From Pedobacter sp. Leaf216 (GTDB lineage Bacteria > Bacteroidota > Bacteroidia > Sphingobacteriales > Sphingobacteriaceae), in NCBI RefSeq assembly GCF_001421515.1, contig NZ_LMKM01000023.1:533209-597208 (forward strand): 64,000 nucleotides of DNA, written 5' to 3'. The first letter of the stretch is position 1; each line of letters starts with the position of its first letter. A program made the position numbers and the translations under genes. The notes below the pieces were generated by a model that made no database searches, was not told the DNA's origin, and saw only the letters and a program-made list of their open reading frames with translations. Of the stretch, positions 38,114 through 58,958 are shown one piece after another.

Positions 38114-38170
38114 CGAGAGCGTTAATTTAGATACGGGTATACGACTTAGGTTGTATGCCCGTTTTTTGTT
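38114..38170 (+). ncRNA. candidate tiny RNA between orphan promoter and terminator
   Basis: A transcript started by the promoter at 38077-38109 would run to the hairpin at 38133-38167 and be about 55 nt. It would be antisense to the last codons of idi. Evidence is only promoter and terminator spacing; it may simply be the idi terminator read from the other side. Confidence 0.3.
38133..38167. terminator. hairpin terminator at the end of the carotenoid operon
   Basis: ACGGGTATAC (38133-38142) pairs with GTATGCCCGT (38153-38162) with one G-T pair, followed on the plus strand by TTTTTT. The right arm overlaps the idi stop codon. Confidence 0.7.
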
Positions 38171-38688
38171 TTAGCAGTTGAGGCATGCTTCACAACCTCA
38201 TTTAAACAGATTCTCAGCCACGGTGTATACGCTTCAGGATTATGTTCGATATCCTTAGCCAAAGCTTCTAAATCCATATATTTAAAGGTTTCCACTTCAT
38301 CAGGGTTAATAACGGGCAAATCATTGCTCAACCCAAAAAAAACATGGTCTACCTCATGCTCAGTTAAACCATCTGCAAATTCGGCACGGTAAGTAAATTT
38401 AAAAAGGTAACTGATATCACAGTCCATCCCCATCTCCTCTTTTAATCTTCTTTTAGCGGCTTGTAAATTGCTTTCGCCAATCCGGGGGTGACTGCAGCAG
38501 GTGTTGGTCCATAAACCACCCGAATGGTATTTACTTAGGGCCCTTTGCTGCAATAGCAACTCGCGGTTGCTGTTAAAAATAAAAACTGAAAAGGCCCTGT
38601 GCAATAAACCCTTTTGATGCGCTTCCAATTTGTCCATCTGTCCTTTGGGCACATCTTCCTCATTTACAAGAATAACTTGTTCTTCCAT
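38146..38688 (-). CDS. idi: isopentenyl-diphosphate delta-isomerase, type I
   Basis: 180 residues. The Nudix-fold enzyme interconverts IPP and DMAPP for isoprenoid synthesis. Catalytic Cys is in TNTCCSHP, the metal and Glu site in LKEEMGMDC, and EHEVDHVFFG holds the second catalytic Glu. It starts immediately after the crtB stop (TAA then ATG), so it is translationally coupled and would supply precursors for carotenoid synthesis. Last gene of the carH-crtB-idi unit. Confidence 0.96.
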   Translation of the reverse strand: MEEQVILVNEEDVPKGQMDKLEAHQKGLLHRAFSVFIFNSNRELLLQQRALSKYHSGGLWTNTCCSHPRIGESNLQAAKRRLKEEMGMDCDISYLFKFTYRAEFADGLTEHEVDHVFFGLSNDLPVINPDEVETFKYMDLEALAKDIEHNPEAYTPWLRICLNEVVKHASTAKTKNGHTT

Positions 38689-39525
38689 TTAAATTGCATT
38701 TAACTTATTTCGGATAAGCGAATCGAACATTAAACCAACCTTTCGAGTGTTGGAAATCCTGATCCTTTCCGTCATAATTTTTTCGGCACTTAACCGCTTT
38801 ATTTTAACAAATAATTTTCTATAGTATACGTAAGATAAGTATACGCCGTTTTTAGAGGCCGCAGGCAACATTTTAATTCCTTTTAAGGCATAAGCAAATT
38901 CTTGCTCAATCTCATCTTCAATTTCCTTTTTTTGGCGATCGCAGAATACAGCTAAATTTACATTTGGAAAGTAAGTGCGGTTTAACCCCTGGTGGTCGGC
39001 TTTAACATCACGAAGAAAATTTACCTTTTGAAAGGCCGAACCGAGTTTCATTGCATAAGGCTTTAACCGTTCATATTCTGCCGGGTCGCCATTTGCAAAC
39101 ACCTTTAAGCACATTAAGCCCACCACCTCTGCCGAGCCTAAAATGTATTCGTTGTACAGTTCGGGCGTGTATTGCTGGTCAGAGAGATCCATTTCCATAC
39201 TTTTAAAAAAGCAATTAATTAACTCATGATCAACCTGATATTGATTGATAGTGCGTTGAAAAGAGTTAAGGATTGGATTTAAACTGATGCCCAGATCGAT
39301 GGCTTCAAAAGTATCATGCTTAAATTTATCAAGTAAAAATTTCTTATCAAAGTGATGAAAACTATCCACAATTTCGTCTGCCAACCGTACAAAGCCATAA
39401 ATAGCATGAATGGGCAAACGCAGTTCTTTACCCAAAAAATAAATACCCAGCGAAAAACTTGTGCTATACTTTTTGGTGGTTAGCCTGCTACAATCGGCCG
39501 ATAATTGATCAAAGATTTCTTTCAT
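38689..39525 (-). CDS. crtB: phytoene/squalene synthase family protein
   Basis: 278 residues from the ATG at 39525 (MKEIFDQLSADCSRLTTKKY), which begins as these proteins usually do and lies 4 bases after the carH-like stop; ATG 39561 and TTG 39564 upstream would overlap that gene. The two Asp-rich motifs are Asp50-EIV-Asp54 and Asp173-VKA-Asp177. The enzyme joins two GGPP to phytoene, the first carotenoid step. Other crt genes (crtI, crtY, crtZ) are not in this window. Confidence 0.93.
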   Translation of the reverse strand: MKEIFDQLSADCSRLTTKKYSTSFSLGIYFLGKELRLPIHAIYGFVRLADEIVDSFHHFDKKFLLDKFKHDTFEAIDLGISLNPILNSFQRTINQYQVDHELINCFFKSMEMDLSDQQYTPELYNEYILGSAEVVGLMCLKVFANGDPAEYERLKPYAMKLGSAFQKVNFLRDVKADHQGLNRTYFPNVNLAVFCDRQKKEIEDEIEQEFAYALKGIKMLPAASKNGVYLSYVYYRKLFVKIKRLSAEKIMTERIRISNTRKVGLMFDSLIRNKLNAI

Positions 39526-39529
39526 GTAA

Positions 39530-40414
39530 CTAGGGATATTGGAGTAATTTTTCAAATTCATCAAGGGTTTTAAACCAATTGATGTGACCGATATTTTTTA
39601 ATTTACCGATTACCTGGCCGTTTCCGGCGAGATGAATTTTAGCGGATGAGCATAGGGATGATAATTGATCTATATATTTTTGTGATGTGGTTTCTGATCT
39701 GGATTTTACCATAAAAAGTAAAACATGATCCACATTTAATGTTGAGAATACTTTTTCAATTGAATCTAAAGGAACTTTACTTCCTAAAAAAATAACCTGA
39801 TGATGGTGCATTTTAAGCATATAATTTGCAAAAAGTAACCCGATATCGTGGTCTTCATCCTCAGGTAAAAAAAGAAGCCAGGTACCACTCGACGATTTTG
39901 CCAGTGGGAGATTATTAATGTGGGTAAATATTTTCTGCCGGATGATGTTCGATAAAAAATGTTCGTGTGCAGGGCAAATATCGTCTTTGCGCCACATCAA
40001 TCCCAACCTTACCAGTAAAGGATAAATTATTTTGCGGTAACAATCAGAGAGTCCGAATTGGGCTATCCCATCATCAAGTAAACGATTAAAAGATAATTCA
40101 TCAAAAGCTAAGCCATGACTGATGAGTTGGGAAATATAATATTCCAGATGCTCATCATCCGACGGGTAAGAAAAATGTTCGTTTAAAAGTTGGTCAACAT
40201 CCTGCTCGGAAAGACTACAGATTTTAGAAATTTTTAAACCGCTTTTATTTAAACTAGCGATATTTAACAGTTTTTTAAGCTGTTTATCATCATATAAGCG
40301 GGTATTGCCCTCCGATCGTGAAGGCGTTAAGGCATTATAACGTTGCTCCCAGATCCTGATGGTATGAGAATGAATGCCCGAAAGCTGTTCAAGATCTGAA
40401 ATGGAATAATTCAT
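39530..40414 (-). CDS. MerR-family, B12-binding CarH/LitR-like regulator
   Basis: 294 residues. Residues 1-70 are a MerR winged helix (ISDLEQLSGIHSHTIRIWEQ and RYNALTPSRSEGNTRLYDD). Residues 80-290 match a cobalamin-binding light sensor: Trp141-x9-Glu151-His152, and E187-D-H189-D-I-G192 for the lower axial His. In Thermus CarH the residue after that Trp is His132, which caps cobalt after photolysis; here it is Arg142. It is upstream of crtB and idi, as expected for a repressor of carotenoid genes released by light. Confidence 0.9.
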   Translation of the reverse strand: MNYSISDLEQLSGIHSHTIRIWEQRYNALTPSRSEGNTRLYDDKQLKKLLNIASLNKSGLKISKICSLSEQDVDQLLNEHFSYPSDDEHLEYYISQLISHGLAFDELSFNRLLDDGIAQFGLSDCYRKIIYPLLVRLGLMWRKDDICPAHEHFLSNIIRQKIFTHINNLPLAKSSSGTWLLFLPEDEDHDIGLLFANYMLKMHHHQVIFLGSKVPLDSIEKVFSTLNVDHVLLFMVKSRSETTSQKYIDQLSSLCSSAKIHLAGNGQVIGKLKNIGHINWFKTLDEFEKLLQYP

Positions 40415-40417
40415 TAT

Positions 40418-40451
40418 TTTGTTTAAATATATTCAATAAAATATAAACAAA
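40418..40451. promoter_or_regulatory. candidate CarH-like operator and promoter
   Basis: TTTGTTTA (40418-40425) and TAAACAAA (40444-40451) form a perfect 8-bp inverted repeat with 18 bases between, ending 3 bases before the regulator's ATG. On the minus strand TTTG (40451-40448) and TATATTTA (40431-40424) look like promoter elements with a 16-base spacer. Placement suits autoregulation. Confidence 0.5.
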
Positions 40452-58409: not shown

Positions 58410-58958
58410 TTAAACACGCGGAATCCAAATGTTTTCTTCTGTCTTATAATACATGGTCAGTTTTCGTGCCAAAACGAATAAATAATCGCTTAAGCGGTTC
58501 AGGTAAACTGTTACATGCTCATCTACAAAGCTATTTTCTGCAAGCTCAACTGTCAGTCGTTCTGCCCTTCTACAAACACATCTTGCAATATGGCAGTATG
58601 AAACGACAGTATTTCCGCCAGGCAAAACGAAATGCTTTAAATCTGGTAAGGTTTCATTTATGAGATCCATCTCATTTTCAAGCAGGGTAATATCATGATC
58701 ATGAAGATCAGGAATTTTCATTTTCGACTTTTCGGGATCCGCAGCAAGTGATGCACCTACTGTAAAAAGCCTGTCTTGAATTTCTTTTAACAACTGCTGA
58801 TCATGCAATTCAATATCCTGGCACATGATTAAACCTATATACGAATTTAATTCATCTACAGTTCCATAAGCTTCGATACGCAAATGGTACTTAGGCACAC
58901 GCGTACCGCCAATAAGTGAGGTTTGGCCTTTATCGCCTGTTTTTGTGTAGATTTTCAT
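58410..58958 (-). CDS. PduO-type cob(I)alamin adenosyltransferase
   Basis: 182 residues. Makes adenosylcobalamin from cob(I)alamin and ATP. Signatures are KIYTKTGDKGQTSLIGGTRV at the N-terminus (ATP-binding), AYGTVDELNSYIGL and CHIARCVCRRAERLTVEL. Full length for the PduO/MMAB class. It would supply the cofactor sensed by CarH-like regulators such as the one at 39530. Confidence 0.95.
   Translation of the reverse strand: MKIYTKTGDKGQTSLIGGTRVPKYHLRIEAYGTVDELNSYIGLIMCQDIELHDQQLLKEIQDRLFTVGASLAADPEKSKMKIPDLHDHDITLLENEMDLINETLPDLKHFVLPGGNTVVSYCHIARCVCRRAERLTVELAENSFVDEHVTVYLNRLSDYLFVLARKLTMYYKTEENIWIPRV

Follow-up and report, generated by a model that had tools for sequence, protein, structure and literature searches.

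A CarH-like MerR regulator without the photolysis histidine at a carotenoid locus of Pedobacter sp. Leaf216, and a probable inverted operator shared among Bacteroidia

The locus described here raises the question whether a CarH-like regulator can still serve as a B12-type photoreceptor when it lacks the histidine (His132) that caps cobalt after photolysis in CarH of Thermus thermophilus (TtCarH), and which genes it would then control. The regulator gene (merR) lies on a 64,000-nucleotide stretch of the Pedobacter sp. Leaf216 genome (the window), on the minus strand at 39530..40414, and encodes from an ATG start a protein of 294 aa with Arg142 (codon CGC, 39989..39991, minus strand, by translation and alignment) at the TtCarH His132 position. 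Our analysis, which is based on sequence comparisons and a structural model, favours with a probability of roughly two in three a light-released B12-type repressor that would work without bis-His ligation, sit AdoCbl-bound in the dark on an inverted operator, and govern merR together with a phytoene synthase gene (crtB) and an isopentenyl-diphosphate isomerase gene (idi).

The merR translation contains G138, W141, R142, E151, H152 and H189, in exact agreement with the numbering of Trp141, Arg142, Glu151, His152 and His189 in a preliminary description of this DNA. Profile matches and the model place an HTH domain at residues 3-65, a four-helix bundle at about 86-167 and a Rossmann-type domain at about 178-294. 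Two Pfam domains exceeded their cut-offs, namely MerR_1 (54.8 bits, cut-off 21.6) and B12-binding_2 (27.4 bits, cut-off 23), PF02310 B12-binding remained below threshold (16.4 vs 32.1 bits required), and the NCBIfam CarH equivalog NF052513 scored 82.1 bits against a cut-off of 400 bits, which was passed by none of 395 phylum genomes and which a Thermus control did not reach either. By sequence, TtCarH chains were the top relatives of solved structure (E about 1e-13), and the nearest named loci by protein belong to Pedobacter species with up to 82% identity. Specifically, the Wx9EH motif is present (W141, E151, H152), as is ExHx2G with the lower-ligand His (E187-x-H189-x2-G192), while F234-M-V and G264-N stand in place of the SxV/T-x22-27-GG half of the B12 motif. 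The same F234-M-V and GN occur in all 62 rows covering these positions in subfamily A, to which the window's protein belongs. From the SignatureFinder signature of light-responsive cobalamin proteins three of four elements are kept (G138xxW141, E151-H152, G211xxxP215), and the fourth, GxxH, reads D186xxH189, with Asp186 replacing the glycine. Because SxV/T and GG are lost and the GxxH glycine is Asp, we use the label CarH-like and not CarH proper.

An AlphaFold2 model of the merR product built with 35 homologs (mean pLDDT 89.1, pTM 0.76) had TtCarH as its top Foldseek match (5c8e_G, E 4.4e-15), and in a second structural aligner TtCarH (Z 18.5) was tied with CtMerR of Chloracidobacterium thermophilum (8jbt, Z 19.2, 2.7 A over 217 residues; 8jbs, Z 18.6). 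Model residues 75-294 fit both CtMerR and TtCarH with Z 18-19 and rmsd 2.2-2.9 A, that is, both subdomains were modelled. Profiles, motifs and structural alignment thus agree with the CarH/LitR-type architecture and the Trp-x9-Glu-His and Glu-x-His-x2-Gly motifs that had been proposed from the sequence. The protein shares with TtCarH/LitR (PDB 5C8D-F, 8C31-37) the MerR HTH, the four-helix bundle, the Rossmann B12 domain, Wx9EH and ExHxxG, and differs from it by the absence of His132, the loss of SxV/T and GG, and a charge-swapped dimer pair. The TtCarH head-to-tail dimer is reported to be held by the pair Arg176-Asp201 (PMC10442372). The residues aligned with these two are D188 and K213, and an acidic residue at 188 (D/E) together with a basic one at 213 (K/R) was found in 60 of the 63 subfamily-A proteins, the 39 other homologs mostly having neither; we infer that D188-K213 may form a swapped salt bridge relative to TtCarH.

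The meaning of Arg142 depends on what relatives carry at this position. Our first alignment comprised 102 distinct homologs, of which 63 belong to subfamily A and 39 do not. Most come from Pedobacter/Mucilaginibacter and further families of the Bacteroidia, and Pedobacter is heavily sampled. Its 103 rows agree with the earlier placement of Arg142, since the R142 column coincides with the His after Trp in TtCarH. The 102 homologs have R (53), Q (31), L (8), S (5), G (2), M (2) or F (1) there and never H, and G138, W141, E151, H152, H189 and G211 are invariant in all of them (102/102). Gln was also found at 142 in two orthologs that are 81% identical to the window's protein (L005 and L007). When this alignment was widened by the best CarH-model matches from 395 genomes sampled from the phylum and by ten plasmid records, the set grew to 140 distinct rows; four of them without the core (L185, L190, L191 and L198) were dropped before the count. 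Among the 136 relatives keeping W, E-H and the lower H, only three have His at the 132 position, two of them Thermus and one (L159) from the same phylum but from another class than Bacteroidia; the count for Bacteroidia rows keeping the core is 0/122. Arg142 is therefore no anomaly, since none of the 122 Bacteroidia rows has His and close orthologs vary, and the idea that the missing photolysis histidine marks a special loss had to be given up. Judged from these alignments, position 142 is variable, His is the exception and the His-less state is the rule in Bacteroidia. Variation at the His132 position is already published, and the missing His alone is nothing new. Arg142 was also rejected as a new ligand or conserved functional residue, as Gln, Leu and Ser occur in subfamily-A relatives. 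Another His at the upper ligand position, the check that the preliminary description had proposed against itself, did not turn up, as no alternative conserved His near the upper face was found in the 102-homolog alignment; position 150 was discarded as a substitute because it is His or Gln and not conserved. Two of the rows without the core are possible B12-independent members: L190 (Persicobacter) reads EN instead of EH and lacks the lower His, and in L185 Ser replaces the lower His.

Published precedents bear directly on whether such proteins can respond to light. CtMerR, which has Arg at the 132 position, is described as binding AdoCbl, being photolysed and changing from a dark tetramer to a light monomer, with a reoriented Glu holding a water-mediated place near the cobalt in the light state, and Gln and Tyr are reported at the His132 position in photocobilins (PMC11796333). 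The TtCarH variant H132A photolyses and yet mostly stays tetrameric in one study, an observation that speaks against our reading, while an earlier study saw disassembly (PMC10442372). Because of the reports on CtMerR and on H132A photolysis, the absence of His132 does not in itself abolish photoreception. The earlier suggestion of a light response "by another route" is in keeping with the photoresponsive, Arg-containing CtMerR (PMC11796333), but Arg is no peculiarity of the window's protein. The latter resembles CtMerR (PDB 8JBS, 8JBT) in Arg at the His132 position and in the retained Trp, Glu-His and lower His; it differs in that the two are 18% identical over the aligned part and that CtMerR keeps GxxH and the full light signature, where the window's protein has Asp186. 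One could also imagine a ligand swap, in which a cysteine of subfamily A would cap cobalt after photolysis instead of His132. Of the 63 subfamily-A proteins, 62 have a Cys147, one helical turn before E151, and the 39 others all lack it; this residue opens the model helix 148-167 that carries E151. We consider such a cap very improbable, since homologs outside subfamily A are without Cys147 yet share the operator described below, and CtMerR is reported to need no protein cap (PMC11796333).

A further alternative is that AdoCbl is no longer required by the domain, light being relayed by a second photoreceptor, such as a LOV protein of the kind known for Pseudomonas class II LitR, or by a CarS-like antirepressor. 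The loss of SxV/T and GG from the B12 motif and 16 PAS_9 matches in the genome would fit this, and class II LitR (PplR/PmlR) with its short LOV protein has a regulon (phrB, folE, cryB, SDR) that resembles the operator neighbours in Bacteroidia (PMC9758184). The likeness extends to the kind of genes in the regulon (photolyase, GTP cyclohydrolase I, SDR) and to palindromic paired sites, there TGTACA-N12-TGTACA; the differences are the lack of a Rossmann part in class II, its LOV partner, and a spacing of 12 vs 18-19 here (PMC9758184). Class II LitR is said to keep only the four-helix bundle, and both subdomains were modelled here. W, E, H and H are moreover invariant among the 102 homologs, and no LOV-type NCRFLQ motif was found in a partial test of the window, four PAS loci and two other stretches. 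The B12-independent paralog CarA is described as being without Wx9EH (PMC8156234), a motif that is present in the merR product. On this evidence we regard a B12-independent domain as unlikely, and continue with the light-released B12-type repressor as the preferred reading.

The genes that such a repressor would control lie immediately downstream. The crtB-type phytoene synthase (38689..39561, minus strand; SQS_PSY, 130.8 bits) shares 32 bp with merR, and the type 1 isopentenyl-diphosphate isomerase gene idi (38146..38688, minus strand; PRK03759, 174.9 bits, cut-off 127) starts at the base next after the crtB end; for these reasons we consider that merR heads a merR-crtB-idi unit. The preliminary description was correct in that merR heads crtB and idi, but idi lies outside the region 38689-40451 to which it was assigned, and the carotenoid output has to be narrowed, because crtI, a lycopene cyclase and a crtZ-type hydroxylase are encoded elsewhere in the genome, on contig C12, which groups crtI, a hyp-lycopene cyclase gene pair, an ECF sigma gene and the crtZ-type hydroxylase gene. 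The output is accordingly the phytoene-synthase step and isoprenoid supply, not the whole pathway. In many relatives crtB adjoins crtI, and other subfamily-A loci have the order merR-crtI-crtB-hyp-idi, often followed by a lycopene cyclase gene (e.g. L070, L071, L087, L109 and L110). We infer from these gene orders that the operon may have been split in the window's lineage with regulation kept on the committed step. The regulator was also considered to act in trans on the crtI/lycopene-cyclase locus, and this was dismissed, since no exact operator was found at that locus. The genome has a second SQS_PSY gene, for squalene or phytoene synthase (an internal stretch was scanned). TtCarH likewise adjoins a phytoene synthase gene, and in addition a photolyase gene. 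A second type of MerR homolog adjoins photolyases in other Pedobacter genomes (e.g. L099), in contrast to the photolyase cluster by sucA/sucB on contig C2 of the window's genome (L140:8877-10363), where no MerR homolog was found.

Our analysis also revealed a probable operator directly upstream of merR, TTTGTTTA-N18-TAAACAAA, composed of two inverted CarH-type 11-bp elements at 40418..40451 (given without strand) and matching exactly the consensus TTTGTYTA-N18/19-TARACAAA. This 34-bp site, TTTGTTTATATTTTATTGAATATATTTAAACAAA, ends 3 bp from the merR start codon and is the sole exact copy in the 5.68-Mb genome, whether N18 or N17-20 is allowed. With up to two mismatches the genome has 45 operator sites vs 57 control sites, and weak matches are thus uninformative, since they are no commoner than the control; two one-mismatch sites were rejected as targets, as one lies within an ORF and the other straddles the start of a small ORF. 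Of the 63 subfamily-A loci, 56 have a relaxed form of the operator in the 120 bp upstream, with N18 at 35 loci and N19 at 21, and it stands 0-6 bp (median 3) from the start codon. Several of the seven loci without it are near-matches or have doubtful starts. The CarH 11-bp element is given as nAnnTnnACAn, and known operators are described as tandem direct repeats (PMC8156234, PMC9304148). Both arms fit this element in 53 of the 56 subfamily-A sites, and unlike the tandem elements of TtCarH those at merR are inverted and separated by N18. The same contrast holds for the direct 11-bp repeats of Myxococcales CarH, which otherwise offers parallels in a carH gene within a carotenoid operon, an operator overlapping the promoter and a plastic operator design (PMC9304148). 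Within the site we noted a promoter-like TTG-N16-TATATTTA (40424..40450, minus strand), which suggests that repression at merR would occur by promoter occlusion. Compared with the Bacteroidetes -33/-7 promoter consensus, its spacing is one below the usual range.

The operator is not confined to this locus. Among the genomes of the genus, an exact operator was found in 53 of 64 counted as type A, in 17 of 41 with only other homologs and in 1 of 14 without a homolog; the 11 type-A genomes without an exact site and the one homolog-less genome with a site count against our reading. Outside the genus, 43 class-level genomes have a homolog (E <= 1e-8), and 24 of these carry the exact operator, which was absent from all 36 genomes that have none; the figures for a control read backwards are 6/43 and 5/36 (Fisher p 7e-9 for co-occurrence in the 79 class genomes, a value that ignores kinship between genomes). 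In the class sample, 143 of 395 Bacteroidia genomes had the operator vs 39 of 395 for the read-backwards control, and 12 of 39 class-level sites were, by eye, within 1 kb of a homolog. In the literature searched, which excluded most subscription journals, we found no paper on a Bacteroidota CarH operator and no account of an inverted operator in the company of light genes in Bacteroidia.

This company was inspected at 48 distinct sites, 20 chosen for their distance from any homolog and the others class-sample loci (30, with two repeats dropped). A light-response gene (ECF sigma, photolyase, crt, homolog, PTPS/folE or rhodopsin) was found within 1.5 kb of 29 of the 48, and of 23 when the comparison was restricted to reference proteins that had been selected in advance from the window's genome. 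The latter is the only figure free of circularity, because the references for rhodopsin, DUF4397, PTPS, folE, DPRP, SDR and flavin reductase were taken from the inspected sites themselves. At nine sites there was a DUF4397 protein, accompanied at one of them by an ECF sigma gene; another nine had nothing recognised, and none of the 48 lay inside an ORF. Of 30 control sites, 13 were inside an ORF and none had a light gene within 1.5 kb. These neighbours also bear on the possibility of a dark sensor of AdoCbl supply, in which repression would track the cofactor level and light would have no role in vivo. AdoCbl-dependent DNA binding alone would give such behaviour, and a PduO-type ATP:cobalamin adenosyltransferase gene (58410..58958, minus strand; PF01923, 208.9 bits) lies 18 kb off within the window, outside the merR operon, which indicates that AdoCbl can be made in the window's genome. 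However, AdoCbl in such a site is reported to be photolysed even with Arg (PMC11796333), and the operator neighbours are photolyase, crt, ECF sigma, pterin and rhodopsin genes, not B12 genes. A dark sensor thus seems quite improbable to us, and nothing at this locus speaks for the earlier proposal that the protein "senses B12 in the dark", the genes that accompany the operator across Bacteroidia being those of the light response.

Pfam confirmed PTPS, GTP cyclohydrolase I and two rhodopsins beside operator sites. In the two Bacteroidia genomes concerned, an exact inverted operator stands directly upstream of bacteriorhodopsin-like PF01036 genes (L215:2247-3022 and L236:1501-2343), and at L215 it ends one base before the rhodopsin ATG, a geometry like that at merR. 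This suggests that rhodopsin may be under light control of a B12-type repressor at these two loci. The operator was also observed 1-64 bp upstream of genes for secreted DUF4397 proteins (L203, L206, L207, L208, L210, L227, L228 and L234), several of which bear a type IX secretion tail; we know of no link of DUF4397 proteins to light. An ECF sigma gene beside crtI (L139:10496-11059) has relatives that adjoin regulator and operator in many Bacteroidia, and as a guess it might have a CarQ/LitS-like role.

Taken together, we propose the following mechanism for the light-released repressor. In the dark, AdoCbl, for which the encoded adenosyltransferase would be a source, would lie at the junction of four-helix bundle and Rossmann domain; W141 would stack on its adenosine, E151 and H152 would cap it and H189 would be the lower ligand. 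The bound cofactor would drive head-to-tail pairing through the charge-swapped interface, in which D188-K213 would take the place of TtCarH R176-D201, and the resulting assembly would sit on the inverted operator and cover the merR-crtB-idi promoter. Light would break the Co-C bond. In the absence of a capping histidine, the light state would probably be aquo/hydroxo-Co(III)-His189 with a reoriented E151, in line with what is published for CtMerR (PMC11796333). This state would suffice to loosen the assembly and free the promoter, leading to more phytoene synthase, isomerase and repressor itself. The half-lost B12 motif, the scores of PF02310 and NF052513 below their cut-offs and Asp186 count as evidence against this reading.

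Beyond the window, we lean slightly towards a broader interpretation, in which CarH-like repressors without bis-His ligation would be the photoreceptors of a Bacteroidia-wide light regulon, with one inverted operator through which B12 photochemistry would reach ECF sigma, photolyase, carotenoid, pterin (PTPS-folE), DUF4397 and, in two of the genomes examined, rhodopsin genes. The His132 switch of TtCarH would then be a local elaboration, and the regulon of the window's lineage would have shrunk to merR-crtB-idi. For Chryseobacterium lacus, also of the Bacteroidota, light-induced carotenoid synthesis is described in the absence of any recognised regulator (PMC7064467). Should CarH-type repressors indeed function throughout the class with no bis-His light state, what is accepted as the trigger of TtCarH disassembly would not be general. 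A defined operator before genes for sigma factors, photolyases, carotenoids, pterins and rhodopsins would also open light control in Bacteroidota, non-phototrophic soil species included, to direct testing.
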